Part shown: in pieces, positions 34,521 to 53,260 of the stretch
How positions within the stretch are numbered: the first letter of the stretch is position 1
Layout of the letters: each line of letters opens with the position of its first letter
Source of the DNA: Halioglobus sp.
Lineage (GTDB): Bacteria > Pseudomonadota > Gammaproteobacteria > Pseudomonadales > Halieaceae
Length of the DNA stretch: 54,984 nt
Assembly (NCBI GenBank): GCA_020443425.1
Contig: JAGRIE010000026.1
Coordinates: forward strand, 1-54,984
Direction of reading: 5' to 3'
Translations under genes and position numbers: made by a program
The notes under the pieces: generated by a model
The model's database searches: none
What the model was told of the DNA's origin: nothing
What the model saw: the letters and a program-made list of their open reading frames with translations, nothing else

Positions 34521-35645
34521 CTAAAACTGGAGCTGTAACTGCACGATGAACTGGCCCTGGTTGGACTCGTCGGTGACTTCCAGGTTTCTGTAGGTCGTGG
34601 CGATCTGGGCATTGTAACTGTCGATAATATAGTTGACGCCAAAGTCCCATCGCTCTGTAGTAATACCATCGTCAGCATCAAAGCTCTGGAAGTGTACTAT
34701 CGGCATGATCTGGCCCCAGCCTACCTTCTCTTTGAATATAAAACCCAGACCCACTGCGTACGCGTCACCTTGCTCACTGGTGAACACATCGTCAGTGTCA
34801 TAGTCGTAATAAGCTGCCTCAAGCGACACAGCGCCGGGCCCGAGCATCTTTTCGATCAGCAAATCGACGGCCACCTGGCTGTAATCACCCACCGCTGTGG
34901 TGGAAGCAGCGCCATCAGCTTTGTAACGCCCAGCAACACCGATAGTGAAAATATCCTTTTTACCCAGGTAATTCGCGGTGCCGTAATAACCCGTTTCCTT
35001 GTCCCAGAAGCTGTATTGCAAGCGGCTTGCAAACATCGGGTCATCACTCTGGTCGGGGTTAGTAGTAGAGACATCTGGCAGGCCGCTGAAATGAAAGATC
35101 CTGTCACCTTCGAATGCGCCGAATGAATAGGCGAAACGTTGGTCAAATGCCAGCGCTACCAGTGCGAGACCGTCGTCGCGCCCGATGTACCCACCATTCC
35201 AACCGTATCGGGCTGCAATGTTCTGCCAGTAACCATCGCCTGAGGTGTAGTACGGCCCGGCCATATTCGCCCGGCTGCTGGGTGAAAGAAAGCGACCGGC
35301 CCAAACCGAAATATCGGGTGTGACTTCGAAAATGCCTGCCGCATCGATCACCTGCATCGTGGAGTCGTTACCCGATTTTTCAGTATTGAATATGCCTTTG
35401 ATGTATTTGTTAAGCCCGCCGGCGATGTACAACCGCGCACTATCCAGCTCGAAATCGTGGGTATTGTCGCCATTGTTGGCTGCGTCTTCAACTGAGCTGT
35501 AACTGCCACGCATACCAAAACCGACACTGATGTAGCGGTCTTCACCGAAAGTGATAGTGCCGGCAGCATGTGATGCGACAGGAACAACGGTTGCAGCCGT
35601 TGCCAAGGATACTGCATAGGTAAGATGCTTCAATTTGGTTTTCAT
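34521..35645 (-). CDS. Outer-membrane porin, probable urea/short-chain amide porin
   Basis: 374 aa. The signal peptide ends at ASHA (residue about 27), followed by alternating beta strands and a C-terminal aromatic residue (QLQLQF), as in a beta-barrel outer-membrane protein. Its position next to a urea uptake and amide hydrolysis regulon matches FmdC-type porins for short-chain amides and urea described in Methylophilus, though sequence similarity to FmdC was not computed here. The ATG follows AGGGGTAACAC. It is divergent from the lipoprotein gene, across an intergenic segment that carries the motif shared with the urtA upstream region. Confidence 0.8.
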   Translation of the reverse strand: MKTKLKHLTYAVSLATAATVVPVASHAAGTITFGEDRYISVGFGMRGSYSSVEDAANNGDNTHDFELDSARLYIAGGLNKYIKGIFNTEKSGNDSTMQVIDAAGIFEVTPDISVWAGRFLSPSSRANMAGPYYTSGDGYWQNIAARYGWNGGYIGRDDGLALVALAFDQRFAYSFGAFEGDRIFHFSGLPDVSTTNPDQSDDPMFASRLQYSFWDKETGYYGTANYLGKKDIFTIGVAGRYKADGAASTTAVGDYSQVAVDLLIEKMLGPGAVSLEAAYYDYDTDDVFTSEQGDAYAVGLGFIFKEKVGWGQIMPIVHFQSFDADDGITTERWDFGVNYIIDSYNAQIATTYRNLEVTDESNQGQFIVQLQLQF

Positions 35646-35755
35646 GTGTTACCCCTGTGAGACTCAAGATTGAAAAAATGTAGGTCTATTCAAATTTTCG
35701 TTCGTAAAGCTGGACGTTCAGGGGCCATACTAATGAGCAACAAACTTCGCTTGAA

Positions 35756-35771
35756 TACGTCAAATAGCGTA
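35756..35771. promoter_or_regulatory. Half-palindromic motif upstream of the porin gene
   Basis: TACGTCAAATAGCGTA lies in the 193-bp segment between the divergent porin and lipoprotein starts. It matches 13 of 16 positions of the near-palindrome TGCGTCAAATGACGTA at 40840-40855 in the kinase/urtA intergenic region. Both sites sit in promoter segments of the urea regulon, which suggests an operator of the nearby two-component response regulator. Inference only. Confidence 0.45.
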
Positions 35772-35838
35772 GGAACAATATCGAGGTTTTCAGGTATTCT
35801 TGACGCCATCATCTAGCATTAACGGACGGGATCAATTC

Positions 35839-36371: not shown

Positions 36372-37274
36372 CTAGTCCACTCGCTGCTTATGCAGGCATT
36401 GTATTGCCATGGCCGCCGCAGAGGTACGATTATCCACATCCAGCTTTTTGAACAGCTGCTCCAGGTGTTTGTTCACCGTGCGCGGACTTACCTCAAGTAC
36501 CAAGGCGATTTCCCTATTGGTTTTCCCCCTGGCCAGCCACAGGAAGACATCAGCCTCACGTGGGGTAATAGAAAACTGTGACCTTAGCAGCTCCACTTCA
36601 TCCACTGCGTCATCGTCTATCAGCCGGACCATATGTTCGTTACTGCTCGACAAACCGAAATAGACTACAGTGAGATTCTTTTCGCCGCTGTTAAAATGCA
36701 TCTTGTCACCCTCCACCGGCCCCCGCGTAAGCCAGATCGAAAGGCTTCGTTCGAGTGAAGCAAGAGTGTTGCTCCGGGTTACCAGCTCCAGCAATTCGTT
36801 AACCTGAGGTGTCGCCCAGGTTTTCTTACCATCATCGGTAATCGCAAATATACTCTGGCCGGCGCTGTCCAGTGCGGCCTGTGCGCTGAGCGTGGCCCGG
36901 GCATTCAGCAGGTGTACATTGATGCGTGCAATCAGCTCAAGGGGGTTTATCGGTTTAGTGAGATAATCTACACCACCGACTTCAAAACCTTTCACTATAC
37001 TTTCGGTATCGCTCAACCCGGTCATAAAAATAACCGGGATATTCTTCAGGCTGGCATCCGCTTTCAAGCGTCGACAGGTTTCAAACCCATCCATTCGCGG
37101 CATGATCGCATCCAGCAGAATCACGTCTGGCATCATTTTCTTTGAAATATTGAGTGCCTGTGTTCCCTCCAGTGCGACCAGAGTTGTCATGTTGGCTTGC
37201 TCCAGGGCAGTACTCAGCATACCCAGCGTGTCAGGTGAATCGTCCACCACAAGCACCAAATTACTATAGGACAT
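36372..37274 (-). CDS. LuxR-type response regulator (REC plus HTH)
   Basis: 300 aa. The N-terminal receiver domain has acidic pair DD11-12, phospho-acceptor Asp55 in LLDAIMPRMDGF, and the conserved Lys in DYLTKPINP. A linker of about 90 residues is followed by a LuxR/NarL-type HTH at about 230-290 (ITPREADVFLWLARGKTNRE and VSPRTVNKHLEQLF). The start lies inside the hybrid kinase gene (11-bp overlap) after GAGGAAAG, so the two are translationally coupled and form a two-component system. It should activate the urea regulon (porin, urt, fmd, ure). The unusually long linker may hold a small input domain. Confidence 0.92.
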   Translation of the reverse strand: MSYSNLVLVVDDSPDTLGMLSTALEQANMTTLVALEGTQALNISKKMMPDVILLDAIMPRMDGFETCRRLKADASLKNIPVIFMTGLSDTESIVKGFEVGGVDYLTKPINPLELIARINVHLLNARATLSAQAALDSAGQSIFAITDDGKKTWATPQVNELLELVTRSNTLASLERSLSIWLTRGPVEGDKMHFNSGEKNLTVVYFGLSSSNEHMVRLIDDDAVDEVELLRSQFSITPREADVFLWLARGKTNREIALVLEVSPRTVNKHLEQLFKKLDVDNRTSAAAMAIQCLHKQRVD

Positions 37275-40200
37275 TGTTACTTTCCTCGGCTTTAGGCTTT
37301 ACCAGGTCAATAATCTGATTGAACTTAACCGCCTTGATAAGGCCCTCGAATGTATCAATAAACGCGTCACTTGCATCACCCGAGGACTTCAGATGTGCCG
37401 CAATTGCGGTGAGCTTGCTCAAATATCCGATCTCAGCGTATCGAACAATGCTCTGGCAGATATTCGCCGCGGGAAATTCATCCTGGGCAACGTCCGATAG
37501 AGACGACAGAGTGGCGGCGCTCTCGACAGGGTTGTGATGCCACGAGAGCTTCATATGGAAGGCAAGGCGTTCCAACAGGTTTTCCAGGCGGATAGGTTTT
37601 ACCAGGTAATCATTGTAGGCGACGTCGTTATCGCGCTCAGGGGTATCCTCGCTGGCGTTGGCAGAGACAATCAGGATTGGCACGGTGAAGCCCAACTCAC
37701 GCAGTTGCCTGGCCAACGTCGGGCCGTCAATACCGGGCATCAGGCGATCTACAAGAAAAAGGTCAGGCGTAAAGCTACCCACCATCTCCAGGCAATCCTC
37801 CGCATGGCGGGCCTCAACGACACTGAATCCCAGAGGCGTCAGCAGGTCACCTGCCAACCCCCGGTGAGTCGGGTCGTCGTCCACCACCATGATAGTTTTT
37901 CTACTGCCCAGATAACCGTAGATTTGCTTTGACCTCGGCATTTCCTCGACCGGTCTCTGCACATGGGAGAGCATTAGCCACAGTGTAAAGGTGACGCCGC
38001 CGTCCGGATTGTTCTCCGCCAGGATGTCACCGCCCATGATGTCGGCAAGTAGACGCGTGATCGCCAGTCCCAGGCCGGTTCCGGGAACGGCCGGAGCACC
38101 AGGGCGTCGCACCCTCTCGAACGGTCTGAAGATACGCTCCAGCTCATTTTCAGGAATGCCGATACCGGTGTCTTTCACTTTGAAAACAGCCACCTGGTTG
38201 CGGTAGAACACTGACAATTTGACATCCCCGCTCTCCGTGAACTTGATTGCATTGGACAGTAGATTGATCAGAATCTGGCGCAGACGCTTTTCATCACCCA
38301 TCACTATCTCCGGCATCACCGAATGACAGATATAGGAAAACTCCAGGCCTTTTTCCTTTGCCTGTAGACGGAACATATTGACCAGCTGGTTCATCAGGTC
38401 ATTGAAGCGAATCTGGTCGCGCTGGATATCCAGGCGGCCGGCTTCTATCTTGGAAATATCCAGCAGCCCCTCGATGAGATCAGCCAGATGCTTCCCACTG
38501 CGCTTGATCACTGAGGCTTGCTCACGAAATCGCTCAGGGATACTTTGATCCATTTCCATGAGCTGGGCATACCCGAGCACGGTGTTCAGGGGAGAGCGAA
38601 GCTCGTGACTGATACCTGTCAGGTAGCGACTTTTTGCACTATTGGCGGCTTCGGCCTGCTCTTTGGCAGCCTGCAACTGCAGGTCTGTCCGTTTGTGTGC
38701 GTTGATTTCTGAGACCAGACGGCGGTTCTGTCGCTGGGACTCCTCCTGTGCCAGTAATTGGCTCTCGTGAGTGAGGACAAACAACCAGGAAATGACTCCT
38801 GCGATGATAAGCAGAATGGAAAACACTTTCCAAAGCGCGCCCTGTACCAGTGCGCCCACAGCGCTGTCGTCGATGTCGATATTGGCATAGACCAGTGCAA
38901 GCAGAAGCCCGGTAAGCAATGTCGTCAGTGAGAACAGGCCGATGAAGCGTATAAGACGCAGATTGAAGTAGTCTCCTGGAAGCCGGGGAAACCACCTGCG
39001 AGCCGCATCCAGTACGCGCTCGCTGATTTTCTGGTCCTGCTTACACATATCCTGGCAGCGGGCATCCAGGGAACAGCACAGCGAACAGATCGCCCCCTCG
39101 TAGGCTGGGCAATAGGCCATGTCCTCGCTCTCGTAGTCATTCTGGCATACACAGCACTGCATGGATTGCTGCCTGTCAGTGAAAATCAGGGGTTCACGAG
39201 CGAGGTAGTATTTCCCTTTGGTGGCAAAGGCAATGCAGGGCGCGATCACAAAAGCACTGCCCAGTGCGATGAAATGTGCCAGCGCGTGGCCGTAATCGCC
39301 AAACAGCCCCAGATAGGATGCCAATCCAAGCAGTGAGGCTGCCAGCATTGCCCCGACACCCACCGGGTTTATATCGTAGAGATGTGCGCGCTTGAATTCG
39401 ATATGCCGGGGGCTCAGACCGAGTGGCTTGTTTACCACCAGATCCGCAACCAGCGCACCGACCCAACTGATGGCAACCAACGCGTAGATACTGAGCATGC
39501 TTTCAAACGCCTGGTATATCCCCAACTCCATCAGCAACAGCGCAATGGCGACATTGAATACCAGCCAAACCACCCGGCCCGGGTGGTTGTGGGTAAGGCG
39601 GGAGAAGAAATTCGACCAGGCGATCGACCCGGCGTAAGCGTTGGTCACATTGATCTTTAGCTGGGACACAACCACAAACACACCGGCCAACATCAGCGCA
39701 AGGTCCTTGTTGCCGGTAAAGAAACCATAAGCCGTGGTGTACATTATGGTGGGGTCGACAGCGTCCGCGCTGGGAATGCCCTGGCCGATGGCGACCACCG
39801 CCAGAAACGATCCTATCAGGATTTTCACGGCGCCGATGATAATCCAGCCCGGCCCCGCGAGAAGCAGGCCCGCCCACCAGGACACTGTATTGGCAGCGCT
39901 TTTCTCGGGCAGGAAACGCAGGAAATCCACCTGCTCACCTATCTGCGCCACTAACGCGAAAATCACAGATGCCGCTGCACCAAACAGCAACAGGTTGGCA
40001 CCTGCCCCGTCCTGTTTACTGCCCTGGTAGACGCGCCATTCCGATGCCAGGCCGGCATCGTTCATCAGAATAAATATCAGCGGCAGCACCTGCAGCACCA
40101 CCCATACCGGCTGGGTCCAGAGCTGGAAGCGGCTTACAAATGTGATGCCGTAAAATACCATTGGAATCACGATAACAGAGCTGACGATGTAACCCAGGGC

Positions 40201-40659
40201 CAGTGGCAGGCCGAGCACCAACTCCAGTGCCTTGGCCATGATCACCGCCTCCAGAGCAAAGAATATGAAGGTAAACGTGGCGTAGATCAGGGACGTTACC
40301 GTCGATCCCAGATAGCCAAATCCCGCGCCCCGTGTCAGCAGATCAATGTCTACGCCGTACTTGGCGGCGTAATAGCAGATCGGCAAACCGGCAAGAAGAA
40401 TCAGCGTCCCCACCACCAGCACCGCTGCCAGCGTGTTATCAAAGCCATAGCTTATCGTAATCGCTGCACCGATCGCCTCCAGCGCCAGAAACGAGATGGC
40501 TCCTGTTGCAGTATTGGCGACACGGGCGATAGACCATCGGCGTGAACGTTTTGCAGTAAAGCGCAGCGCATAATCTTCCAGGGTCTGGTTGTTCACCCAT
40601 TGGTTGTAGCGCCGACTTACGCCGTATACCCGTTGCTTGGCAGACATGGACTCACTCAT
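37264..40659 (-). CDS. Hybrid sensor histidine kinase with NCS1 permease input domain
   Basis: 1131 aa with, in order: (1) an NCS1 nucleobase/cation symporter-like domain of about 12 helices (residues 1-490; YAAKYGVDIDLLTRGAGFGY and INVTNAYAGSIAWSNFFSRL are typical); (2) a Cys-rich segment with nine Cys in about 42 residues (500-545), probably zinc-binding; (3) two more helices (about 560-640); (4) a coiled linker; (5) a HisKA domain with phospho-acceptor His at about 685 (GISHELRSPLNTVLGYAQ); (6) a HATPase with N, G1 and G2 boxes (GTGLGLAITRLLADIMGGD); (7) a receiver domain with Asp at about 969 (LFLVDRLMPG); (8) a C-terminal helical tail, perhaps Hpt-like. The transporter half could sense or carry urea, an amide, allantoin or a nucleobase and signal through the coupled LuxR regulator. 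It lies next to and divergent from urtABCDE. Signal specificity is inferred from context. Confidence 0.92.
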   Translation of the reverse strand: MSESMSAKQRVYGVSRRYNQWVNNQTLEDYALRFTAKRSRRWSIARVANTATGAISFLALEAIGAAITISYGFDNTLAAVLVVGTLILLAGLPICYYAAKYGVDIDLLTRGAGFGYLGSTVTSLIYATFTFIFFALEAVIMAKALELVLGLPLALGYIVSSVIVIPMVFYGITFVSRFQLWTQPVWVVLQVLPLIFILMNDAGLASEWRVYQGSKQDGAGANLLLFGAAASVIFALVAQIGEQVDFLRFLPEKSAANTVSWWAGLLLAGPGWIIIGAVKILIGSFLAVVAIGQGIPSADAVDPTIMYTTAYGFFTGNKDLALMLAGVFVVVSQLKINVTNAYAGSIAWSNFFSRLTHNHPGRVVWLVFNVAIALLLMELGIYQAFESMLSIYALVAISWVGALVADLVVNKPLGLSPRHIEFKRAHLYDINPVGVGAMLAASLLGLASYLGLFGDYGHALAHFIALGSAFVIAPCIAFATKGKYYLAREPLIFTDRQQSMQCCVCQNDYESEDMAYCPAYEGAICSLCCSLDARCQDMCKQDQKISERVLDAARRWFPRLPGDYFNLRLIRFIGLFSLTTLLTGLLLALVYANIDIDDSAVGALVQGALWKVFSILLIIAGVISWLFVLTHESQLLAQEESQRQNRRLVSEINAHKRTDLQLQAAKEQAEAANSAKSRYLTGISHELRSPLNTVLGYAQLMEMDQSIPERFREQASVIKRSGKHLADLIEGLLDISKIEAGRLDIQRDQIRFNDLMNQLVNMFRLQAKEKGLEFSYICHSVMPEIVMGDEKRLRQILINLLSNAIKFTESGDVKLSVFYRNQVAVFKVKDTGIGIPENELERIFRPFERVRRPGAPAVPGTGLGLAITRLLADIMGGDILAENNPDGGVTFTLWLMLSHVQRPVEEMPRSKQIYGYLGSRKTIMVVDDDPTHRGLAGDLLTPLGFSVVEARHAEDCLEMVGSFTPDLFLVDRLMPGIDGPTLARQLRELGFTVPILIVSANASEDTPERDNDVAYNDYLVKPIRLENLLERLAFHMKLSWHHNPVESAATLSSLSDVAQDEFPAANICQSIVRYAEIGYLSKLTAIAAHLKSSGDASDAFIDTFEGLIKAVKFNQIIDLVKPKAEESNNVL

Positions 40660-40839
40660 TTTGGGCTCATATGGTGCATGCGCGCCCTATCAGTGCGCAC
40701 GGTGCACAAGACCTGATGCTGTGCGCATCAGTAAAAGGACTACAGGAACGTAACGGTGAAATGCACTCAAGAATCAAGCCAACTCGATGCCGGGTAGAAA
40801 GCCAGCCCCTTTATTAACACCGACCGCTGTTTCCCGATA

Positions 40840-41005: not shown

Positions 41006-42274
41006 ATGACTCTTACGCACAAGTTTACATCCAGGACGCATGCGTCTGCTCCCAAGAGGGGATTCTTGTCCACCTTGGGCATGGGCGCACTGATTATGGC
41101 TTCCGCCACGTTGTTTTCCTCAGCTGCGATTGCTGATGATGTCAACACAACGGGGTTGGCGGTAACCGATGACACGGTGACGGTTGGCATCCTCCACTCG
41201 CTGACAGGGACTATGGCGATCAGTGAGACCGGTGCACAAGAGGCCGAGAAGCTCGCCATCGCGCAGATCAATGAATCGGGTGGGATCCTCGGTCGTCAGA
41301 TCAAGATCATACAGGAGGACGGCGCCAGCGATTGGCCGACTTTCGCCGAGAAAGCCCGGAAGCTGTTGGTAAGCGACAAAGTGGCCGCCGTGTTCGGTTG
41401 CTGGACATCCGCCTCTCGAAAAGCAGCACTGCCGGTATTCGAGAAGGAGAACGGGCTGCTGTACTACCCCACCTTCTACGAAGGGCTGGAGCAGTCAAAG
41501 AACGTGATCTACACGGGCCAGGAAGCCACCCAGCAGATTATCGACGGACTGAACTGGGTAGCCAAGGAAAAAGGTGCCAAAACATTCTACCTGATCGGGT
41601 CTGATTACATCTGGCCACGCACTTCAATGAAAATTGCTCGCAAGCACATTGAAGATGTGCTGGGAGGCACCGTGGTCGGCGAGGAGTACAAGCCGCTCGG
41701 TGATACCCAGTTCGGATCAGTGATCAACAAAATCCGACTGAAAAAGCCGGATGTCATCTACGCCGCAGTGGTGGGCGGAAGCAATGTGGCCTGGTTCAAA
41801 CAGCTCAAATCAGCCGGTATCACCGCTGATAAGCAAACCCTCCTGACAATCTCTGTGACAGAGGACGAAGTGCTTGGCATCGGTGGTGAAAACCTCGAAG
41901 GCTTCTACTCCATCATGAAATATTTCCAAAGCCAGGACAACGAGAATAACAAGGCATTCGTTGCCGCATTCAAGGAAATGTGGGGCGACGACAGCGTCAT
42001 CGGTGACGTAACCCAGGCTGCCTATCTCGGTCCCTGGCTGTGGAAGGCCGCTGTTGAAAAGGCCGGCTCATTCGACGTAGACAAAGTTGTCGCGGCATCA
42101 GAAGAGGGAGATATCGAGCTGACGACTGCACCTGAGGGCTACGTGAAACTGCATCCCAACCACCACCTTTGGAGCGTCGCTCGCGTCGGGCAATGGAACA
42201 AGGACGGCCAGGCGACTGTCGTCTACGAGTCTGAACTGATCGAGCCGGATCCTTTCCCCGAAGGCTACCAGTAG
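41006..42274 (+). CDS. urtA: Urea ABC transporter substrate-binding protein UrtA
   Basis: 422 aa with a signal peptide ending at about residue 45 (SSAAIA-DD), so periplasmic. This is a type I periplasmic binding protein of the branched-chain amino acid/urea/amide group: VTVGILHSLTGTMAISETG near 60, GAQEAEKLAIAQINESGGIL, and VAAVFGCWTSASRKAALPVF. It delivers urea (and possibly short amides) to UrtBC. It starts the urtABCDE operon and is followed by a 211-bp gap with hairpins that could raise its mRNA level relative to urtB. An upstream extension to 40877 was rejected as lacking a signal peptide. Confidence 0.93.
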   Translation: MTLTHKFTSRTHASAPKRGFLSTLGMGALIMASATLFSSAAIADDVNTTGLAVTDDTVTVGILHSLTGTMAISETGAQEAEKLAIAQINESGGILGRQIKIIQEDGASDWPTFAEKARKLLVSDKVAAVFGCWTSASRKAALPVFEKENGLLYYPTFYEGLEQSKNVIYTGQEATQQIIDGLNWVAKEKGAKTFYLIGSDYIWPRTSMKIARKHIEDVLGGTVVGEEYKPLGDTQFGSVINKIRLKKPDVIYAAVVGGSNVAWFKQLKSAGITADKQTLLTISVTEDEVLGIGGENLEGFYSIMKYFQSQDNENNKAFVAAFKEMWGDDSVIGDVTQAAYLGPWLWKAAVEKAGSFDVDKVVAASEEGDIELTTAPEGYVKLHPNHHLWSVARVGQWNKDGQATVVYESELIEPDPFPEGYQ

Positions 42275-42485: not shown

Positions 42486-43409
42486 ATGGACGGATATACC
42501 TACAGTGAACTGGGGTCCATACTGGCGATGCAGGGCTTCGCCGGATTCAGCCTCTTCAGTGTGCTGTTACTGATGGCGCTGGGACTTGCAATCATATTTG
42601 GACAGATGGGCGTTATCAATATGGCCCATGGTGAGTTTATGGCGGTGGGCGCCTATACGACCTACATGCTCTCCACCCTGACAGAGACCTACGCCCCCAG
42701 CTTGATGCCCTATTACTTCTTCGTCGCAATTGTAGCGGCGTTCCTCATCGCAGGGCTGCTCGGATATATCGCGGAGTTTGTACTCATCCGCCACCTGTAC
42801 AAGAGGCCGCTGGACACCTTGCTGGCAACCTGGGGCCTGAGCCTGATAATGCAGCAGTCATTCCGCTCAATATTTGGCGCCCGGGAAGTAAGCCCCGCCC
42901 TCCCCGACTGGCTGCTGGGTTCATACCAGCCGACAGACACCATCGACATCCCGTTGAATGGGATGTTTGTACTCGGCCTGACTACCGTCGTCACTCTCGG
43001 CGTGTACTACCTGATGTTCAGGTCGCGCTGGGGCCTTCGTGTCCGGGCGACGACCCAGAACCGGGTAATGAGTGGTGCGGTCGGCATCAACACCACTAAA
43101 GTCGACCGCTATACCTTCGCGCTGGGCTGCGGGATTGCCGGGATAGCGGGCGCAGCATTCACCACGATAGCGTCGACGGGCCCCACCACCGGCACACTGT
43201 ACATTGTGGATACATTCATGGTCGTCGTATTCGGCGGTGCAGCCAGCCTGCTGGGCACCATTCTGTCTGCCTTCACGATTGCGCAAGCGCAATCCATTCT
43301 TGAATTCTTCATTAGCGGCTCTATGGCAAAAGTCTACACATTACTCGCCCTGGTACTGATCCTCATGTTCAAGCCGGAAGGCTTATTCGCGAGCAAGATC
43401 CGTCGTTGA
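42486..43409 (+). CDS. urtB: Urea ABC transporter permease UrtB
   Basis: 307 aa, about eight membrane helices, a LivH-type permease. Signature stretches are MALGLAIIFGQMGVINMAHGEF near residue 30, DTLLATWGLSLIMQQSFRSI near 115, and YTFALGCGIAGIAGAAFTTI near 205. It makes the inner-membrane channel with UrtC. It lies 211 bp after urtA and is followed by urtC. An unusually weak Shine-Dalgarno (GGAGATG) lies 8 bp upstream. Confidence 0.94.
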   Translation: MDGYTYSELGSILAMQGFAGFSLFSVLLLMALGLAIIFGQMGVINMAHGEFMAVGAYTTYMLSTLTETYAPSLMPYYFFVAIVAAFLIAGLLGYIAEFVLIRHLYKRPLDTLLATWGLSLIMQQSFRSIFGAREVSPALPDWLLGSYQPTDTIDIPLNGMFVLGLTTVVTLGVYYLMFRSRWGLRVRATTQNRVMSGAVGINTTKVDRYTFALGCGIAGIAGAAFTTIASTGPTTGTLYIVDTFMVVVFGGAASLLGTILSAFTIAQAQSILEFFISGSMAKVYTLLALVLILMFKPEGLFASKIRR

Positions 43410-43454
43410 GCACGGGGTTTCTGCATCGACTATAAGCAATTTTTGGAGACAGGT

Positions 43455-44606
43455 ATGACCTTTGTTTATGAAAGATTGATGGGCGGGAAAAGCGGGCTTA
43501 GCGGGTTTTTGATACTGGCCCTATTCATCCTCATTGTATTGCCGCTGAGCCTCGATCTGTTTCGACTCAACCTGGTGGGAAAATATCTCACCTACGCCTT
43601 TGCCGCCATCAGCCTGGTGCTGCTGTGGGGCTACGGGGGGATACTGAGCCTGGGACAGGGCATATTTTTCGGTCTGGGTGGCTATGGCATGGCGATGTTT
43701 CTCAAGCTCGAAGCGTCTTCTCCCGAGAATACCGCCATTCAATCAACACCGGGAATTCCCGACTTCATGGACTGGAACCAGCTCACGGAACTGCCGTGGT
43801 TCTGGGTTCCGTTCAACAGTTTCACCCTCACCATCATTGCGATTCTCATACTGCCGGCCGCGTTTGCCTACCTGATAGGCGCCGCCATGTTCAAGCGTCG
43901 GGTGGGAGGGGTGTATTTCGCCATCATCACCCAGGTTATTGCAGTCATACTCACGGTACTGATTGTCGGACAGCAGGGCTTCACCGGCGGCATCAACGGA
44001 ATTACCGACCTTAGAACACTGAATGGCTGGGACATCACTTCCAACAGTGCCAAATACATTTTCTACTTCATAAACTGCGCACTGCTGCTCACCGTGATTA
44101 TGGCTTCACGGTTCATTCTCACCAGCAAGTTCGGCAGCCTGCTGCTGGCGATCCGGGATAAAGAAGATCGTGTCCGGTTCTCTGGCTATGACGTTTCCAA
44201 TTTCAAGATATTCGTCTTCTGCTTCGCCGCACTGATCTCAGCGATCGGCGGCGCGATGTTCACCCTGCAGGTCGGGTTCATGTCGCCCTCTTTCGTGGGC
44301 ATCGTCCCATCGATTGAAATGGTGATATTCGCTGCGGTCGGTGGCCGCATGTCACTGGTGGGCGTGGTATACGGGACACTGCTGATTAACTTCGGAAAGA
44401 CCGCATTCTCCGAGTCCTTTCCCGAACTCTGGCTGTTCCTGATGGGTGGCTTGTTCATTGCAGTCGTTATGTTCTTCCCGAATGGGTTGGCCGGGATCTG
44501 GAAGGACTACGGCCATCACCTGACCAACAGGCTGAGTGGGTTGAGGAACTGGGTTCAGAACTCTCCGGCCGGTGCGACCAACAAGAAGATGGTAGACAAC
44601 ACATAG
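43455..44606 (+). CDS. urtC: Urea ABC transporter permease UrtC
   Basis: 383 aa, a LivM-type permease with about nine helices. LLWGYGGILSLGQGIFFGLGGYGMAM at about 55-80 (split as WGYGGILSLGQG and GLGGYGMAM) and QQGFTGGINGITDLRTLNGW at about 170 are UrtC hallmarks. The ATG follows TTTGGAGACAGGT. Together with UrtB it forms the transmembrane core. It is cotranscribed with urtB, D and E. Confidence 0.94.
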   Translation: MTFVYERLMGGKSGLSGFLILALFILIVLPLSLDLFRLNLVGKYLTYAFAAISLVLLWGYGGILSLGQGIFFGLGGYGMAMFLKLEASSPENTAIQSTPGIPDFMDWNQLTELPWFWVPFNSFTLTIIAILILPAAFAYLIGAAMFKRRVGGVYFAIITQVIAVILTVLIVGQQGFTGGINGITDLRTLNGWDITSNSAKYIFYFINCALLLTVIMASRFILTSKFGSLLLAIRDKEDRVRFSGYDVSNFKIFVFCFAALISAIGGAMFTLQVGFMSPSFVGIVPSIEMVIFAAVGGRMSLVGVVYGTLLINFGKTAFSESFPELWLFLMGGLFIAVVMFFPNGLAGIWKDYGHHLTNRLSGLRNWVQNSPAGATNKKMVDNT

Positions 44607-44646
44607 CGCGCTGACCGCCGTTTATCCCAGGATTGAGGAGCAGGAA

Positions 44647-45399
44647 ATGATCGCAGCTGGCAACACGGATTTCACCCTGGCTATCGAGGATCTCACCGTT
44701 TCATTTGACGGTTTCAAGGCCGTGGACGGGTTGAATTTCTACCTTGAAAAGAACGAGCTTCACGTTGTGATAGGGCCGAATGGTGCCGGGAAAACCACGG
44801 TTCTTGACCTGATCTGCGGGAAAACCAGGTCGACCTCCGGCAGCATCAGGTTTCTCAACCAGGAACTGACCAAAATGGCCGAACACGAGATTGTCAGGGC
44901 CGGTGTCGGTCGCAAATTCCAAACACCGTCCATTTATGAAAACCTGACGGTGTTTGAGAACCTGGAGGTCTCCTACCCTGCCGGACGCGGTGTATTCGGC
45001 TCCATCATGTTCAAGCGCAGCGAAGAGGTCAAAAAGAAAATTGAGGAAGTTGCGCAAGACATCAACCTGGGGGATGCCCTGGACACTGAATCTGGCCTGC
45101 TCAGCCATGGCCAGAAGCAGTGGCTGGAGATCGGCATGTTGCTGATTCAGGACCCACAGCTGCTGATGTTGGACGAACCGGTTGCCGGCATGAGCGTCAA
45201 TGAGCGCAACCAGACAGCAGAGCTGCTGAAGCGTATCAGTAAAGGCCGATCCGTGCTGGTTATCGAACACGATATGCCCTTCGTGAAGCAGATCGCACAC
45301 AAAGTCACCGTACTTCATCAAGGAAAAATACTGGCAGAGGGCAATATGGAGAAGATACAGCACGATCCGAAAGTCATCGATGTCTACTTAGGTCACTAA
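44647..45399 (+). CDS. urtD: Urea ABC transporter ATP-binding protein UrtD
   Basis: 250 aa. Walker A GPNGAGKTT is near residues 48-56, the signature LSHGQKQWLEIG is near 155 (the LSHGQ form is usual for UrtD), and Walker B LLMLDEPVAGM follows. It energises urea uptake with UrtE. It lies 40 bp after urtC. Confidence 0.95.
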   Translation: MIAAGNTDFTLAIEDLTVSFDGFKAVDGLNFYLEKNELHVVIGPNGAGKTTVLDLICGKTRSTSGSIRFLNQELTKMAEHEIVRAGVGRKFQTPSIYENLTVFENLEVSYPAGRGVFGSIMFKRSEEVKKKIEEVAQDINLGDALDTESGLLSHGQKQWLEIGMLLIQDPQLLMLDEPVAGMSVNERNQTAELLKRISKGRSVLVIEHDMPFVKQIAHKVTVLHQGKILAEGNMEKIQHDPKVIDVYLGH

Positions 45400-45431
45400 C
45401 CCGCTCGGCGCCACCAGTTGAAGGAATTGTT

Positions 45432-46121
45432 ATGCTAGAAGTCTCCAACCTGAAAGTCTGCTACGGCCAGAGTGAAGTTATTCGCGGCCTGAATTTCACT
45501 GTCCCCAAAAACGAGACACTGGCCATTATGGGCCGCAATGGTATGGGCAAGACAACCCTTTTCAAATCGCTGATAGGCATCCTGCCGTCGACAGAGGGCG
45601 AAATCAGCGTCGACGGCACCGATGTCACCAACAAGGACAGCTATCTGCGGGTCGCAAACGGGATCGCCTATGTACCCCAGGGCCGCATGATATTCCCGAA
45701 CCTGACGGTACTGGAAAATATTGAAACCGGCATGGAGGTATCCAGGCAGAAAACTGTCCCGGAAGACATATTCGCCCTGTTTCCGGTGCTGTGGGAAATG
45801 CGCAAGCGCAAAGGTGGAAACCTGTCCGGCGGCCAGCAACAACAGCTTGCAATAGCGCGCGCCCTCGTCACGAACCCGAAAGTACTGCTTCTCGACGAGC
45901 CCACCGAAGGTATCCAGCCTTCGATAATAAAAGACATCGCGAAAATTCTTAACGAGATCAAGAAGCTTCGCGAGATCACCATTATCGTCTCGGAACAGGT
46001 GCTCAGTTTCACTATGTCGATAGCGGATCGAATCATTGTGATCGACAAAGGTGAATTTGTGCACGAGGACATGCGCAGCGATGTGGATGCCGACAAGATC
46101 GCGAAATATTTATCCGTATAG
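45432..46121 (+). CDS. urtE: Urea ABC transporter ATP-binding protein UrtE
   Basis: 229 aa. Walker A GRNGMGKTT is near residues 34-42, the ABC signature LSGGQQQQLAIARAL is near 135, and Walker B VLLLDEPTEGIQPS follows. It is the second nucleotide-binding subunit of the urea transporter. It lies 32 bp after urtD and 94 bp before fmdA, and the whole set looks like one operon. Confidence 0.95.
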   Translation: MLEVSNLKVCYGQSEVIRGLNFTVPKNETLAIMGRNGMGKTTLFKSLIGILPSTEGEISVDGTDVTNKDSYLRVANGIAYVPQGRMIFPNLTVLENIETGMEVSRQKTVPEDIFALFPVLWEMRKRKGGNLSGGQQQQLAIARALVTNPKVLLLDEPTEGIQPSIIKDIAKILNEIKKLREITIIVSEQVLSFTMSIADRIIVIDKGEFVHEDMRSDVDADKIAKYLSV

Positions 46122-46215
46122 AACTGACAACGGGAGGGACCTGTTTTGCCGTTAGACATTGCTACTGGGCACACACAGAAAATACACCACTCTTTATTCA
46201 CAACAGGAGCTTGAA

Positions 46216-47448
46216 ATGACTGAGACCATTATTAAGATTGATCTGAATGAGTCACCTCTCACTAACGAGAAAATCCATAATCGCTGGCACCCGGACATTC
46301 CGATGGCGGTTACCGTTAAGCCGGGCGACGATTTCAAAATTGAGTGCTACGACTGGACCGGCGGCCAGATTGAGAACAATGACGATGCGGCTGACGTACG
46401 CGATGTCGATTTAACGCAGGTGCATTACCTGTCCGGCCCCGTGGGAGTTGAAGGTGCTGAACCCGGCGACCTGCTGGTAGTCGATATCCTGGATATCGGA
46501 ACCTTTGACGAGAGTCTATGGGGCTTCAACGGGTTTTTCTCCAAGAAAAATGGTGGCGGCTTCCTCACGGATCACTTCCCGGAAGCACAAAAGTCGATAT
46601 GGGACATCAACGGTATGTTCACCAAGTCACGGCATGTGCCCGGGGTTGAATATGCGGGATTGATCCACCCGGGGCTGATCGGCTGCTTACCTTCAAAGGA
46701 GCTACTGGACGAGTGGAACACCCGTGAGAAAGCTCTGGTCGACACTGATCCAACAAGAGTGCCGGAGCTGGCCACACTGCCCTATGGCGATACGGCCCAT
46801 ATGGGCAAACTGCAGGGCGAGGAGAAAGCGAAGGCGGCCGCTGAAGGTGCGCGGACTGTTCCTCCCCGGGAGCACGGCGGCAACTGCGATATCAAGGACC
46901 TGTCGCGGGGATCAAAAATCTACTTCCCTGTGTATGTCAAAGGCGCCGGCCTCTCCGTAGGCGACTTGCACTTCAGCCAGGGCGATGGCGAGATCACCTT
47001 CTGCGGCGCCATTGAAATGGCAGGTTGGATTCATTTACGTGTGAACCTGATCAAGGGTGGTATGGAGAAGTACGCGATCAAGAACCCGATCTTCAAACCG
47101 AGCCCCATCGCCCCCAAGTACGACGACTACCTCATCTTTGAAGGTATCTCAGTGGATGAAGGCGGTAAGCAGCATTACCTGGATGTGCACATCGCCTATC
47201 GACAAGCCTGTTTGAACGCCATCAACTACCTGGAGAAGTTCGGTTACTCGCGGGCGCAATCCTATGCAATTCTCGGCACGGCACCGGTGCAAGGGCATAT
47301 CAGTGGCGTGGTAGACATACCCAATGCCTGTGCCACCCTGTGGCTACCCACTGATATCTTTGAGTTTGATGTGCAGCCCGGCAGTGACGGCCCCACCAGG
47401 TATCTGGACGGCTCTGTCGATGTGCCGCTCGCCCCGGACCTTGAGTAG
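46216..47448 (+). CDS. fmdA: Formamidase/acetamidase FmdA
   Basis: 410 aa from the ATG after CAGGAGCTTGAA; an upstream extension was rejected. Family FmdA/AmdA: WHPDIPMAVTVKPGDDF near residue 25, VHYLSGPVGVEGAEPGDLL near 75, REHGGNCDIKDLSRGSKIYF near 218, and SQGDGEITFCGAIEMAG near 255, the last three lining the metal site. It hydrolyses formamide or acetamide to ammonia and the acid. With the Urt transporter in the same operon it gives an amide-to-ammonia route beside the urease. A clear intrinsic terminator follows. Confidence 0.95.
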   Translation: MTETIIKIDLNESPLTNEKIHNRWHPDIPMAVTVKPGDDFKIECYDWTGGQIENNDDAADVRDVDLTQVHYLSGPVGVEGAEPGDLLVVDILDIGTFDESLWGFNGFFSKKNGGGFLTDHFPEAQKSIWDINGMFTKSRHVPGVEYAGLIHPGLIGCLPSKELLDEWNTREKALVDTDPTRVPELATLPYGDTAHMGKLQGEEKAKAAAEGARTVPPREHGGNCDIKDLSRGSKIYFPVYVKGAGLSVGDLHFSQGDGEITFCGAIEMAGWIHLRVNLIKGGMEKYAIKNPIFKPSPIAPKYDDYLIFEGISVDEGGKQHYLDVHIAYRQACLNAINYLEKFGYSRAQSYAILGTAPVQGHISGVVDIPNACATLWLPTDIFEFDVQPGSDGPTRYLDGSVDVPLAPDLE

Positions 47449-47558: not shown

Positions 47559-47909
47559 ATGCCCGTTTACGACTACAAATGCAAGGAACACGGTGTGTTC
47601 TTCGAATTGGCCACTATTGAGGAAAGCGGCAACCCCATCGCGTGCCCCAGCTGCGGGACCCTGTCTGCGCGCGTTATTCTGCTTTCGCCGGAGACCTTCC
47701 GCATGGACAAGGACAAAAAGAAAGCGCATGAGCTGAACGAGCGCAATCAGCATGAGCCCGCCTTTTCAACCCGCGCGCGGCGCGCGGACGACGAGCGACA
47801 CAGCAAAGGCTGCGGCTGCACAGCCAAGATCGGTAAATCCAAAATGTTATTGACCGCACGGGGTGAAAAGATATTTCCCTCGATGAGACCCTGGATGATA
47901 AGCCACTGA
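47559..47909 (+). CDS. fmdB: FmdB family zinc-ribbon protein
   Basis: 116 aa. The MPVYDYKCKEHG start, the second Cys pair CPSCG at about 31-34, and a C-terminal CGC at about 92 are seen in the FmdB zinc-ribbon family. FmdB proteins were first described as regulators of amide use, and the domain is otherwise widespread with unclear function. It starts after GGGAG and is 10 bp before ureD, so it is likely in the urease operon. Confidence 0.9.
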   Translation: MPVYDYKCKEHGVFFELATIEESGNPIACPSCGTLSARVILLSPETFRMDKDKKKAHELNERNQHEPAFSTRARRADDERHSKGCGCTAKIGKSKMLLTARGEKIFPSMRPWMISH

Positions 47910-47918
47910 GAACGCCTT

Positions 47919-48860
47919 ATGTGGAAGGGACCAGAAGCGACTGCGCTGGAAATTGCGCATGCGACGAGCTCACACCCTGCTCCGCCTGCCGCACCTGTCG
48001 GCGTTGACCCAACGCCGGAGATGGGCACGGCACCGGGCTGGCGCGCCCGGCTCACTCTGGACTACGGTCTCAGGGGCAGCCGGACGCGCCTGGTCGGCAA
48101 GTCCCAAAGCGGCCCGCTGACCGTACAGCGCGCTTTCTATCCCGAGGGCGCTACTTGCCACAACTACATACTGCATCCCCCGGGCGGCGTGGTGGGCGGT
48201 GATTCACTGGAAATAGCCGTCCACACCGGCACCGGCGCCCACTGCCTTCTGACGACCCCCGGTGCCACCAAGTTCTATCGCAGCAGTGCGCTGTTGCCAG
48301 GACGTCAGGTCCAGCGATTCCATGTAGATGAGGGTGCGGTCACTGAGTGGTTGCCGCAGCAGAACATCTACTTTTCCGGTGCTCACGCCGAGCTTGAGAC
48401 GCACATCGATATCGCCCGTGGTGGACGTTTTTTGGGCTGGGAACTGCACTGTTTTGGACGCCCCTCCAATGACGAGACCTTTTCCTGCGGCTCACTGCAC
48501 AGCTGTACCCGGGTGAGTGTCGGCGGCGAGCTGCGCTTGCTGGAGCAACTTCATCACAGCCAGGCTGCTGATATGTTGTTCTCCGCCACGGGCCTGCGCG
48601 GCATGGCAATGCAGGGGAGCTTTATCGCCGCGCCCTGTAGCGAGGCACAGCGAGACCTGCTGGCACAGATACTGCATGCAGACACGGGGGAGAACTACCC
48701 ACACCCGGTAGGACTGACACTGGTGGATGACGTGCTCATCGTCAGGGCTCTGGGCGGCCAGGCAGAACCGATGGTCCGGCTGTTTACCCGTTGTTGGTCC
48801 GGCCTGCGGCAGCAGTGGCTAAACAAGGCCCCCTGCGTACCGCGCATCTGGGCTACTTAA
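47919..48860 (+). CDS. ureD: Urease accessory protein UreD
   Basis: 313 aa. It has the UreD/UreH hallmarks: [26 protein letters not shown] near residue 70 (split as [17 protein letters not shown] and VVGGDSL), [12 protein letters not shown] near 110, and [13 protein letters not shown] near 145. The N-terminus has about 34 extra Pro/Ala-rich residues; an in-frame ATG at 48021 would give the usual length. It acts as a scaffold for UreF-UreG on the apo-urease during nickel insertion. It leads the ure structural genes. Confidence 0.93.
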
Positions 48861-48885
48861 GCAAACAAAGGTACCGGCAGACCCC

Positions 48886-49188
48886 ATGGAACTGACACCC
48901 AGAGAAAAAGACAAACTGCTGCTTTTCACGGCGGCCCTGCTGGCGGAACGTCGCAAGGCGCGCGGCGTGAAGCTCAATTACCCCGAGTCTGTCGCTTACA
49001 TCAGCGCGGCGATCCTGGAGGGGGCCAGGGACGGTCGCACTGTGGCCCAGTTGATGGACTACGGCCGCACGCTGCTGTGTGCGGATGACGTTATGCCAGG
49101 TGTTCCTGAACTGATCCCCGAGGTGCAGGTAGAGGCCACTTTTCCCGACGGGACCAAGCTGGTCACAGTACATGACCCCATTGTCTAG
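48886..49188 (+). CDS. ureA: Urease subunit gamma (UreA)
   Basis: 100 aa, the exact size of bacterial UreA. Starts [20 protein letters not shown] and contains [22 protein letters not shown] (split as [14 protein letters not shown] and ILEGARDG) and [20 protein letters not shown]. It is the smallest subunit of the urease trimer. It lies 25 bp after ureD and 9 bp before ureB. Confidence 0.97.
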
Positions 49189-49197
49189 GAGAGAGCG

Positions 49198-49518
49198 ATG
49201 CCAGAGAAGCCGTTAGTACCGGGCGAGTTGCGTGTCGCTGCAGGCGATATCGAACTGAATGCGGGACGCAAAACCGTCCGTGTGGCCGTCGCGAACGTCG
49301 GTGACCGACCGATACAGATCGGTTCCCACTATCATTTCTATGAAGTGAACGATGCCCTGGTTTTCGAGCGCCAGCAGGCACTCGGGTTCCGGCTGAACAT
49401 TGCATCGGGTACCGCCGTACGTTTTGAGCCGGGCCAGGAGAGGACTGTGGAGCTGGTGGAATATGCCGGCGCGCGAAGAATCTATGGCTTCCAGGGCAAA
49501 GTAATGGGCCAATTATAG
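49198..49518 (+). CDS. ureB: Urease subunit beta (UreB)
   Basis: 106 aa, standard UreB length. Visible motifs: [20 protein letters not shown] near residue 36, [20 protein letters not shown] near 60, and [20 protein letters not shown] near 83. It joins UreA and UreC into the apo-enzyme. It starts after GAGAGCG, 9 bp from ureA. Confidence 0.97.
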
Positions 49519-49527
49519 GGGACAGGT

Positions 49528-51234
49528 ATGGCGCTGAGAATATCCAGACAGGCTTACGCTGAAATGTTCGGCCCCACCACCGGAGACCGGCTGCGTCTGG
49601 CTGACACACAGTTGTGGTTGGAAGTAGAGAAGGATTTCACCACTTACGGCGATGAGGTCAAGTTCGGCGGTGGCAAGGTTATCCGCGACGGCATGGGACA
49701 GAGCCAGCTACCCAGTGCGGAAACCGTTGACCTTGTCATTACCAACGCGTTGATTATTGACCACTGGGGCATTGTGAAAGCCGATGTGGGAGTAAAGCAC
49801 GGGCGCATCGCGCGCATCGGCAAAGCGGGCAATCCGGACACCCAGCCCAACGTCGATATTGTCATCGGGCCGGGCACAGAGGTGATCGCCGGCGAGGGCC
49901 AGATCCTCACCGCCGGCGGGGTTGATTCACATATACACTTCATCTGCCCCCAGCAGATTGACGAGGCGTTGACATCCGGGGTCACGACCATGATCGGTGG
50001 CGGCACCGGCCCTGCAACCGGCACCAACGCCACCACCTGCACATCCGGGCCGTGGAATATCCATCGCATGCTGGAGGCGGTCGATGCCTCACCGATGAAT
50101 ATCGGTTTACTGGGCAAGGGCAACGCCAGCCTGCCCGAAGCGCTGCGCGAGCAGATCGCCGCCGGGGCCATCGGCCTCAAGCTGCATGAGGATTGGGGCA
50201 CCACACCTGCGGCAATCAACCAGTGCCTGGAAGTTGCCGATGCCACCGATGTACAAGTGGCGATTCATACAGACACCCTCAATGAATCCGGCTTTGTAGA
50301 GGCGACCCTGGCAGCGATCGCGGGCCGCACCATTCACACGTATCACACTGAAGGAGCGGGTGGTGGCCATGCACCGGATATCATCAAAGCCGCAGGCGAA
50401 GCCAATATACTGCCCTCCTCCACCAATCCCACACGACCTTACACAGTGAACACTGTGGACGAACACCTCGACATGCTGATGGTATGCCATCACCTGGACC
50501 CCGGCATTGCCGAGGATGTGGCCTTTGCCGAGTCGAGAATTCGCCGCGAAACCATCGCCGCCGAGGACATCCTGCACGATCTCGGCGCGTTCTCCATGAT
50601 TGCTTCGGATTCACAGGCCATGGGTCGGGTCGGGGAGGTGATTACCCGAACCTGGCAAACCGCGCACAAGATGAAAGTTCAACGGGGCGCACTGGCCGAA
50701 GACAGCAGCGCAAACGACAATGAGCGTATCAAACGCTACATCGCAAAGTACACCATCAACCCTGCCATCACGCATGGCATTTCGCATGAAGTTGGCTCTG
50801 TGGAGGCCGGCAAGCTGGCTGACCTGGTACTCTGGAAGCCGGCCTTTTTTGGGGTTAAACCTGCCCTTATCATCAAAGGTGGACTCATTGCCGCTGCGCC
50901 CATGGGGGATCCCAATGCGTCTATTCCCACGCCGCAGCCCGTCCACTATCGGCCGATGTTCGGGGCCATGGGGCGCGCCTGCTTCAGCACCTCAATGCTG
51001 TTCCTGTCGAAAGCCGGGACCGACGCGGATATCGCCGGACAACTGAATTTGCAAAGCCTGGTCGGCACGGTGCAGGGCTGCCGCGCGATCAGCAAGAATG
51101 ACATGGTACGCAACAGCTACCAGCCCATCATCGAAGTCGATTCACAAACGTATGAAGTTCGCGCCGACGGTGAACTGCTGGTCTGTGAGCCGGCGCTGGA
51201 ACTGCCCTTGACCCAACGTTACTTCCTGTTCTGA
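49528..51234 (+). CDS. ureC: Urease subunit alpha (UreC), catalytic
   Basis: 568 aa, full length. The nickel site is complete: His135 and His137 in [10 protein letters not shown], the carbamylated Lys218 in [10 protein letters not shown], the [10 protein letters not shown] region (His220/His247-type ligands), [15 protein letters not shown], and the flap [20 protein letters not shown] with its Cys. An Asp in [14 protein letters not shown] completes the site. It hydrolyses urea to ammonia and carbamate in the cytoplasm. No internal break is seen. Confidence 0.98.
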
Positions 51235-51243
51235 GAACTGCAT

Positions 51244-51693
51244 ATGATTCGTATCGAAAAAATCCTGGCGGTCTCACAGCAACACAGCGCCTGCGTGAGC
51301 CTGCCCATCGACCAGCGGGTGAAGAGTCGGCTGAAGGTAACGCTGGATGACGGCCGCGAGGCCGGCCTGTTCCTGCCACGGGGCCAGATACTGCGCGGCG
51401 GAGATTTGCTGCAGAGCACTGATGGCCTGGTCATCAAGGTCGAGGCGGCCTGTGAGACAGTCTCCACCGTGCACAGCGACAATGCGCATGCACTGGCGCG
51501 GGCCTGCTATCACCTGGGAAACCGGCATGTACCCCTGCAGATTACAGCAACCTGGATACGCTATCAGCATGATCATGTGCTGGACAGCATGGTGGCTGGG
51601 CTGGGGCTGTCGGTAGCAGTGGAGCAGGCACCCTTCGAACCGGAGGCTGGCGCCTACCAAAACACAGCTCACAGCAATCAGCATCACCACTAG
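51244..51693 (+). CDS. ureE: Urease accessory protein UreE
   Basis: 149 aa. It has an N-terminal peptide-binding domain and a C-terminal metal-binding domain with the conserved His in LGNRHVPLQI (about residue 97) and the HDHVLD motif (about 110-115), plus a short terminal His cluster (HSNQHHH). It carries nickel to the UreDFG complex. It is 9 bp after ureC. Confidence 0.93.
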   Translation: MIRIEKILAVSQQHSACVSLPIDQRVKSRLKVTLDDGREAGLFLPRGQILRGGDLLQSTDGLVIKVEAACETVSTVHSDNAHALARACYHLGNRHVPLQITATWIRYQHDHVLDSMVAGLGLSVAVEQAPFEPEAGAYQNTAHSNQHHH

Positions 51694-51719
51694 CTTTTTA
51701 GCCAAACCGAGGATTCACT

Positions 51720-51941
51720 ATGATGACAACGACTTTAAAGCTCGCGTTTACTGGCACACTGCTGGGCTCATGCACTGCCGCGCGGGCGCATCCGGGACAC
51801 CACAATGCGGTATCGGTTTACCACTATCTCACCAATCCCGATCATGCAGTGATATTCGTCCTGCTGGGACTGAGCGCCGCAAGCGCGTTTATTTATGTCA
51901 TCCGCAGGAACCGCGGCGCTGCGAAACAGAGGCGAGACTGA
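51720..51941 (+). CDS. Small membrane protein of the urease operon, unknown
   Basis: 73 aa. A hydrophobic N-terminus ending at ARA (residues 1-23) looks like a signal peptide. It is followed by the His cluster HPGHHNAVSVYHYLTNPDH, a second hydrophobic helix (residues about 45-62, AVIFVLLGLSAASAFIYVI) and a basic tail. The motif HPGHH...PDH resembles the His/Asp nickel ligands at the start of HupE/UreJ proteins, but only one or two helices are present, so it is not a full transporter. Its stop overlaps the ureF start (4 bp), showing it is translated with urease genes. A nickel-related role is inferred from position and His content. Confidence 0.7.
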   Translation: MMTTTLKLAFTGTLLGSCTAARAHPGHHNAVSVYHYLTNPDHAVIFVLLGLSAASAFIYVIRRNRGAAKQRRD

Positions 51942-52609: not shown

Positions 52610-52642
52610 GCAATTGACGGCACAGACAAAAGGATGACGACA

Positions 52643-53260
<618 letters not shown>

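Follow-up and report, generated by a model that had tools for sequence, protein, structure and literature searches.

How does a bacterium sense the urea and small amides that it takes up? Many bacteria draw nitrogen from urea and formamide, and to our knowledge their sensing by heterotrophic bacteria is poorly defined. The question is raised by a contig of Halioglobus sp. (Pseudomonadota, Halieaceae; JAGRIE010000026.1, assembly GCA_020443425.1), positions 1 to 54,984 of which form the stretch analysed here (the window, 54,984 nucleotides). It encodes a histidine kinase with a transporter-like front half, next to genes for the uptake and breakdown of urea and formamide. We conclude that this kinase is probably a sensor that switches on such genes. 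A fuller account, in which it responds to urea or a short-chain amide, with an NCS1-type transporter module as its input and a palindrome-binding LuxR-type regulator as its output, is the one we favour, with confidence somewhat better than even.

The kinase gene (37264–40659, minus strand) is one uninterrupted open reading frame (ORF) of 1131 aa with an ATG start. Its domains follow the order NCS1-fold module, Cys module, two-helix hairpin, HisKA, HATPase, REC and tail (Table 1), a layout that is not due to chance, since the same order recurs widely. A preliminary description of the locus had proposed this single frame with HisKA, HATPase and REC domains and its 11 bp overlap with the gene of a LuxR-type regulator; the ORF call and Pfam bore out both (overlap 37264–37274; REC and GerE domains in the regulator). 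In one relative (L096:9980–14302) the kinase and LuxR-type regulator form a single fused frame of 1551 aa, as is expected if the two are partners. Pfam gave zero matches for the kinase residues before 675 even at E≤10, and the scan of the window kinase revealed neither PAS nor any other domain recognised as a cytoplasmic input. An HPt domain in the tail was ruled out, as there was no conserved His across 128 full-length relatives.

With no Pfam match at the front, the NCS1 assignment rests on structure and profile work. An AlphaFold model covering residues 1–680 and built from 81 sequences reached a mean pLDDT of 87.4 and a pTM of 0.86. When it was searched with Foldseek against the PDB, ranks 1 to 5 were all Mhp1 or CodB (E 6e-10 to 5e-8, target TM 0.68–0.79), and non-NCS1 LeuT-fold families entered the list only from E 6.5e-6. 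A single-target hhalign comparison with an eight-sequence NCS1 profile led by Mhp1 gave 99.75 % probability over 447 columns (E 1.9e-26). By itself the window kinase falls below the Pfam NCS1 cut-off, with no PF02133 match, as do 19 of 20 kinase relatives tested; one passes. We also considered four stand-alone relatives of the module, which adjoin ureG (L038), fmdA (L029 and a Moraxella plasmid) and a CN-hydrolase/AmiC-like/AmiR cluster (L160). Against the PF02133 cut-off of 23.5 bits, L160 (36.4) and L038 (31.8) pass and L029 fails. The predicted structure and the profile match thus characterize the front as an NCS1-derived module rather than a Pfam-certified NCS1 member. The L160 carrier (L160:9949–14984) is a distant NCS1 permease and a possible amide carrier. 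The Moraxella carrier (L295:9914–11557, on a Moraxella osloensis plasmid) is annotated as an allantoin permease. Its gene is transcribed divergently to fmdA and to a gene of FmdB type, and the hut genes about 9 kb away include hutG, the annotated function of which is the degradation of histidine to glutamate and formamide. Further stand-alone NCS1 carriers in L246 and L247 resemble ordinary nucleobase permeases by reading and are not close kin.

Ligand-site residues were mapped from Mhp1 to the kinase through a single profile alignment that is uncertain by one residue in transmembrane helix (TM) 6: W117 to F133, Q121 to E137, W220 to L236 or V237, S312 to K335, T313 to I336, N314 to N337 and N318 to N340. 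We take Ser312 and Thr313 of Mhp1 to be its Na2 site and Trp117, Gln121, Trp220 and Asn318 to be substrate residues; the kinase Lys is at the S312 position, in TM8. Across the 132 kinases whose operon type was assigned, Ser312/Thr313 are replaced by K335/I336 without exception, so that the Na2 side chains have been lost, with a positive residue there instead. E137, Q239, N337, N340, Y342 and eight Cys are equally invariant (20 of 155 sequences, with an absent or mixed operon label or a short frame, fall outside these 132 kinases and three stand-alone carriers). One of the four substrate residues is retained, Asn318 as N340; both Trp are replaced and Gln121 has become Glu137. The ‘complete NCS1-like permease’ of the preliminary description therefore stood as to its fold and one ligand residue, but not as to its Na2 side chains, the other substrate residues or the Pfam cut-off. 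All four stand-alone carriers retain E137, Q239, N337 and N340, with K, K, K and R at residue 335. E61 in TM1 occurs in 132/132 kinases and 0/4 stand-alones, three of which have Asp60, with Phe or Gln at 61; given only four stand-alones, this split is a lead.

Relatives of the module were gathered in three sets that overlap in species and contain many Bradyrhizobium: a class set (19 copies), a phylum set (55 copies, the phylum being taken as Pseudomonadota from the named relatives) and the best 80 of at least 578 relatives (597 candidate stretches) in a scan of named genomes, the last being a sample of the nearest. The phylum set counts 55 of 58 places, leaving out the window, G107 (in the class set) and G741; L040 was left out of the linkage counts for having too little permease, though it lies beside urease genes. 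One alignment of relatives took in 80 of 98. At the class level 18 of 369 genomes have a relative of the module, and at the phylum level 52 of 398; both counts include the window's genome. A urt, fmdA or ure gene lay within 10.5 kb of 12/19 class, 52/55 phylum and 72/80 best-80 copies, or 136/154 across the overlapping sets; the suggested link to a urea/amide regulon thus held well beyond the window, and homologues are not always far from such genes. Divergent urtA genes were found within 1.5 kb of 7/19, 37/55 and 67/80 copies, and a same-strand regulator resembling that of the window lay no more than 3 kb from 13/19, 48/55 and 68/80. Unlike the window, none of the 154 copies had both fmdA and urease within 10.5 kb. 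These counts refer to recognised urt, fmdA and ure genes; clustering of other ORFs was unreliable, being swamped by antisense shadow ORFs.

The neighbouring urt operons fell into two types. Type I encodes a UrtA about 65–91 % identical to that of the window, mostly with fmdA, and type II a UrtA about 34–47 % identical, often with urease genes; type I UrtA may import amide/urea rather than urea alone. Genome G509 has one kinase per operon type, and the L180 locus is mixed, with urease beside urtCDE that resemble type I. Operon-type labels change 7 times on the kinase tree, against a mean of 26.6 (minimum 21) in 500 shuffles. As one sensor family stands beside two urt types, its signal should be one that fits operons for urea as well as for formamide. 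The module also occurs with other outputs: among ten variant chains scanned, six were kinases without REC, and PAS-PAS-kinase-REC, PAS-GGDEF-EAL and kinase-REC-REC-GerE arrangements occurred once each, the tenth (L041) being a broken frame. No urt, fmdA or ure gene was present within the 20 kb examined around the PAS-GGDEF-EAL protein (L039:7849–11520).

Gene content bears on what the signal may be. Counts were made in 66 of 68 module-bearing genomes, G574 and G741 being left out. Urease was present in 62/66, against 31/94 of a class sample (29 over cut-off) that includes seven module-bearing genomes. Three of the four urease-less genomes had urea carboxylase-family proteins over cut-off, giving a total of 65/66, although this model may also match guanidine carboxylases; the fourth, G137, has module copies only outside urea loci. 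Allantoinase passed its curated cut-off in 2/66 genomes (one allantoinase type, without a baseline). Given 65/66 against 2/66, our best guess is that urea or a short amide would be the signal, likelier than a ureide, and the exact ligand may differ between operon types. The preliminary description had leaned the other way, towards a ureide, hydantoin or nucleobase as carried by classical NCS1 members, one step upstream of urea. Such a ligand would suit the NCS1 homology of the module and the annotation of the Moraxella carrier, but the allantoinase count, the replacement of the Mhp1 pocket tryptophans by Phe133 and Leu236/Val237, and the recognised neighbours, which are urea and amide genes for kinases and stand-alone carriers alike, argue against it. 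We set a ureide signal aside on the gene counts and give it scarcely any credence.

Between carrier and kinase, nine Cys lie within 38 residues (502–539); the nine-Cys segment initially reported was thus confirmed, with a span shorter than the 42 or so residues then given. Eight of them (502, 505, 517, 525, 528, 529, 535 and 539) are invariant in 132/132 kinases, in the pattern CxxC-x11-C-x7-CxxCC-x5-C-x3-C, and the predicted structure of the module comprises short strands and one helix. L038 and the Moraxella carrier have only Cys 502, 505, 525 and 528, L160 has none and L029 all eight. This 4+4 split suggests two metal sites of the cross-brace kind, and the metal may be zinc. Known zinc-finger families gave no supported Pfam match; PDB profile matches were short partial overlaps, mostly with C2H2 fingers (best E 0.0011), and a fold search returned nothing below E 0.1, its weak RING, PHD and FYVE matches being non-significant. 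One finger comparison took in 39 of 99 fingers. After the Cys module the predicted model has helices at 567–593 and 599–679, the second running into HisKA, in agreement with the two helices first described there.

Urease requires nickel, and the Cys module might itself be the true input, as a sensor of metal (the supply of zinc or nickel to urease) or of oxidation. The invariance of the eight Cys throughout the kinases would fit such a role. Stand-alone carriers with a four-Cys finger (L038, Moraxella), and kinases with the same eight Cys beside formamidase but no urease within 10.5 kb, speak against it, and we regard a metal or redox input as highly improbable.

The reading of the kinase as a urea/amide sensor acting through its regulator gains from a shared promoter element. 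The palindrome ATACGTCA-NN-TGACGTAT recurs in kinase/urtA promoters and also precedes the porin gene of the window. Of 100 kinase/urtA intergenic regions entered into a dyad search, 76 remained after dereplication; the dyad TACG-N8-CGTA was found in 51/76, as against 11 for the commonest of all dyads in a single shuffled set. A best match to ATACGTCANNTGACGTAT of at least 12/16 was reached in 85/100 regions and in 10/2000 random ones. Position weight matrix (PWM) matches per kb amounted to 0.84 upstream of type I kinases versus 0.010 elsewhere, and to 0.38 versus 0.009 for type II. In the 4.33-Mb draft genome the sole site with at most one mismatch is at 40840; matches with two mismatches were dismissed as chance (19, versus 40 for a control pattern). 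At the PWM threshold, none of five random windows has any site. At related loci, 4/7 porin genes have a site within 350 bp upstream, and in each of the four cases the neighbouring kinase gene shares that site. The window regulator would bind this palindrome; CrbR, which pairs with an SLC5 kinase, likewise works by way of an imperfect palindrome (PMC5715377).

Several points weigh against this reading. The palindrome consensus was derived from the same promoters in which it was counted, so independent checks matter: both kinase plasmid loci examined, which lay outside the model derivation, carry the palindrome, and it was present in 0/7 urtA promoters of kinase-less genomes (best PWM 7.0, threshold about 18.7). 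One of those seven reaches 12/16 on the plain consensus, and 1/5 kinase-bearing loci in the same comparison is without a site. Under the strict PWM, 0–700 bp upstream of the kinase, matches fell to 54/102 for type I, 8/30 for type II, 2/4 for fmdA-only and 2/18 for unlabelled loci. Two window sites at three or fewer mismatches are ordinary by number (shuffle mean 1.27; two or more in 34/100 shuffles); it is their quality and place that carry weight. Linkage, too, is incomplete, with no urt, fmdA or ure gene near 7/19 class, 3/55 phylum and 8/80 best-80 copies (some contigs are short); of the three phylum copies, two are on cut contigs and one is L160, with its CN-hydrolase, AmiC-like protein and AmiR. 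The ligand-residue mapping hangs on a single profile alignment and its TM6 doubt, and the proposed sensing chain as a whole draws on sequence, structure prediction and gene context. Lastly, CbrA still signals without its SLC5 domain (PMC7096432), so a fused carrier may only tune its kinase.

Under another explanation, opened by this last point, the NCS1 module would still transport urea/amide and do no more than set the tone of the kinase, the true signal being cytoplasmic (sensed, for example, via finger, REC/tail or nitrogen status). CbrA lacking the SLC5 domain could still activate its target (PMC7096432), sensing in the SLC5 kinase family is described as probably cytoplasmic in PMC9100948, and transport may persist here, as the pocket residues and the positive residue at the Na2 position are common to the stand-alone carriers. 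Against this, and in contrast to CbrA, the Pfam scan of the window kinase gave neither PAS nor another cytoplasmic input domain of known type; the module sits on several outputs (kinase only, PAS-PAS-kinase-REC, PAS-GGDEF-EAL), as expected of a sensor unit; and E61 separates kinases from stand-alones (132/132 versus 0/4). We consider a purely cytoplasmic signal unlikely, though by no means negligible.

What the computation supports is the NCS1 fold and homology, the invariant residues, the linkage and the palindrome; from these we infer the sensory role of the NCS1 module, the identity of the ligand and the direction of the response. Under the favoured scheme of urea or amide sensing, an NCS1-family carrier would have been fused, via the metal-finger-like module and the two-helix hairpin, to a hybrid histidine kinase, and it may stem from a carrier branch whose stand-alone members adjoin urease, formamidase and amidase genes. 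On being bound in the central pocket (or on passing through it), urea or a small amide would change the conformation of the carrier, and the finger at its C-terminal end, together with the hairpin, may relay this change to the helix entering HisKA. Autophosphorylation of H685, and with it phosphorylation of D55 of the regulator, would be altered. The regulator would then bind the palindromes at 40839–40856 and 35755–35772 and switch on urtABCDE-fmdA-urease, the kinase/regulator operon itself and the porin. A bolder version, which we hold only tentatively and with less than even confidence, makes this a second transceptor, arisen independently in bacteria. An NCS1 carrier of urea/amide whose Na2 position is fixed as Lys would have become a receptor when TM1 changed (Asp60 with Phe/Gln61 in three of four stand-alones, Glu61 in all 132 kinases). 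A Cys finger with two metals would serve as the clutch that couples movement of the carrier to the kinase, and both kinase and GGDEF-EAL outputs would be used. The second Cys site (four Cys) is missing from two stand-alone carriers, one urease-linked and one formamidase-linked.

Among known systems, the SLC5/STAC kinases CbrA, CrbS and RpuS likewise place a LeuT-fold carrier on a HisKA kinase. Two of them, CrbS and RpuS, are REC-containing hybrids paired with a LuxR-type regulator (PMC5715377, PMC9100948), and the window kinase matches them in its HisKA-HATPase, REC and partner regulator. CbrA has a Lys in its Na2 site (PMC13022988); the Lys at the Na2 position of our kinase parallels this but is on a different helix from CbrA K196. 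The window kinase differs from these systems in its carrier, NCS1 outranking SLC5-type folds in Foldseek; in the eight-Cys finger and two-helix hairpin that stand where STAC (a four-helix bundle) and PAS are found; and in its urea/amide regulon. No STAC was seen after the carrier in the models (short strands and the Cys finger) or in Pfam, no separate STAC profile having been searched. In Ks-Amt5 the Amt domain senses its ion (PMC8534201), which it binds without efficient translocation (PMC8534201, PMC5764959). As is proposed for the window kinase, a nitrogen-compound carrier serves there as the sensor domain of a kinase, although Ks-Amt5 has an Amt carrier and, in the parts described, no Cys finger and no REC. 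Mhp1 and CodB share the fold and Asn318 of Mhp1 (N340) with the module, which differs from them in lacking the Na2 Ser/Thr, in Glu137 for Gln121, in its replaced tryptophans and in the kinase fusion. A hybrid kinase and LuxR-type regulator of this sort lie beside urtABCDE in Ectopseudomonas guguanensis (PMC13296017), and the portion of that article available makes no mention of a transporter domain in the kinase. Full-text searches of an open library listed no paper on an NCS1-fused kinase, most subscription journals being outside that coverage. The kinase is a real and widespread variant of the transporter-fused kinases, with another carrier family and a new coupling module.

Table 1. Features of the window, with kinase residues where applicable
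Feature	Position	Strand	Kinase residues	Basis and remarks
Porin of ExtI/FmdC kind	34521..35645	-		NF040900 74.5 bits, below the 150-bit cut-off
Second palindrome ATACGTCAAATAGCGTAG	35755..35772	.		Precedes the porin gene by about 110 bp; predicted site
LuxR-type response regulator	36372..37274	-		REC + GerE (Pfam); Asp55 in place
Kinase tail	37267..37563	-	1033-1131	Alignment of 128 full-length relatives
Receiver (Response_reg)	37564..37893	-	923-1032	PF00072, E 7e-22; Asp971, LFLVD at 967
HATPase_c	37969..38298	-	788-897	PF02518, E 7e-26
HisKA	38437..38637	-	675-741	PF00512, E 6e-16; phospho-acceptor His685, ISHEL at 683
Two-helix membrane hairpin	38770..38961	-	about 567-630	Model helices; membrane placement putative
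Zinc-finger-like module, eight Cys plus one extra Cys	39043..39156	-	502-539	
NCS1-fold permease module	39190..40659	-	1-490	AlphaFold model, Foldseek, hhalign
Palindrome ATGCGTCAAATGACGTAA	40839..40856	.		Between kinase and urtA; predicted regulator site
urtA	41006..42274	+		TIGR03407 518.6 bits, cut-off 492.75; start inferred, longest ORF starts at 40877
urtBCDE	42486..46121	+		By reading and same-order annotated operons on two plasmids
fmdA, formamidase	46159..47448	+		NF045496 782 bits, cut-off 500
RPWMISH/FmdB-type zinc-ribbon protein	47559..47909	+		NF053663 and TIGR02605, both above cut-off
Urease genes ureD to ureG	47919..53260	+		D, E, F and G named by reading, compared only with relatives
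UreC	49528-51234	+		PF00449

Within the window, the kinase and regulator genes are divergent from urtABCDE-fmdA-urease, as the preliminary description had indicated for urtABCDE: UrtA (TIGR03407) and FmdA (NF045496) are above cut-off on the opposite strand, and UrtA is close to solved urea-binding proteins. The nearest characterised porin to the ExtI model is FmdC of Methylophilus methylotrophus (19 %); the window porin is tied to FmdC indirectly, by way of that model and with a score below cut-off. A 179-aa ORF at 35800–36339, lipoprotein-like by reading and with no Pfam or NCBIfam match, is divergent from the porin gene, with the second palindrome between them. Elsewhere, 524 plasmid records carry the module (H27–H52), 342 of them from Klebsiella; the one Klebsiella record examined (L294, an IncFIB plasmid) has urtABCDE-formamidase and the kinase, and a palindrome lies between the urtA and kinase genes, at 11878. 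Sinorhizobium meliloti 1021 has the module on pSymB (1,622,165–1,623,847), and the urtABCDE-fmdA arrangement is found in Alcanivorax and Marinobacter isolates (L046, L050).

In sum, the putative sensor is present in about one in eight sampled phylum genomes and the input module of the window has no Pfam match, so that these proteins would form a sizeable unnamed receptor family. The family comes with natural controls in the form of stand-alone carriers, fused kinases, two operon types, differing outputs and a predicted DNA site, which make the question of occupancy versus flux in carrier-kinase fusions directly testable.

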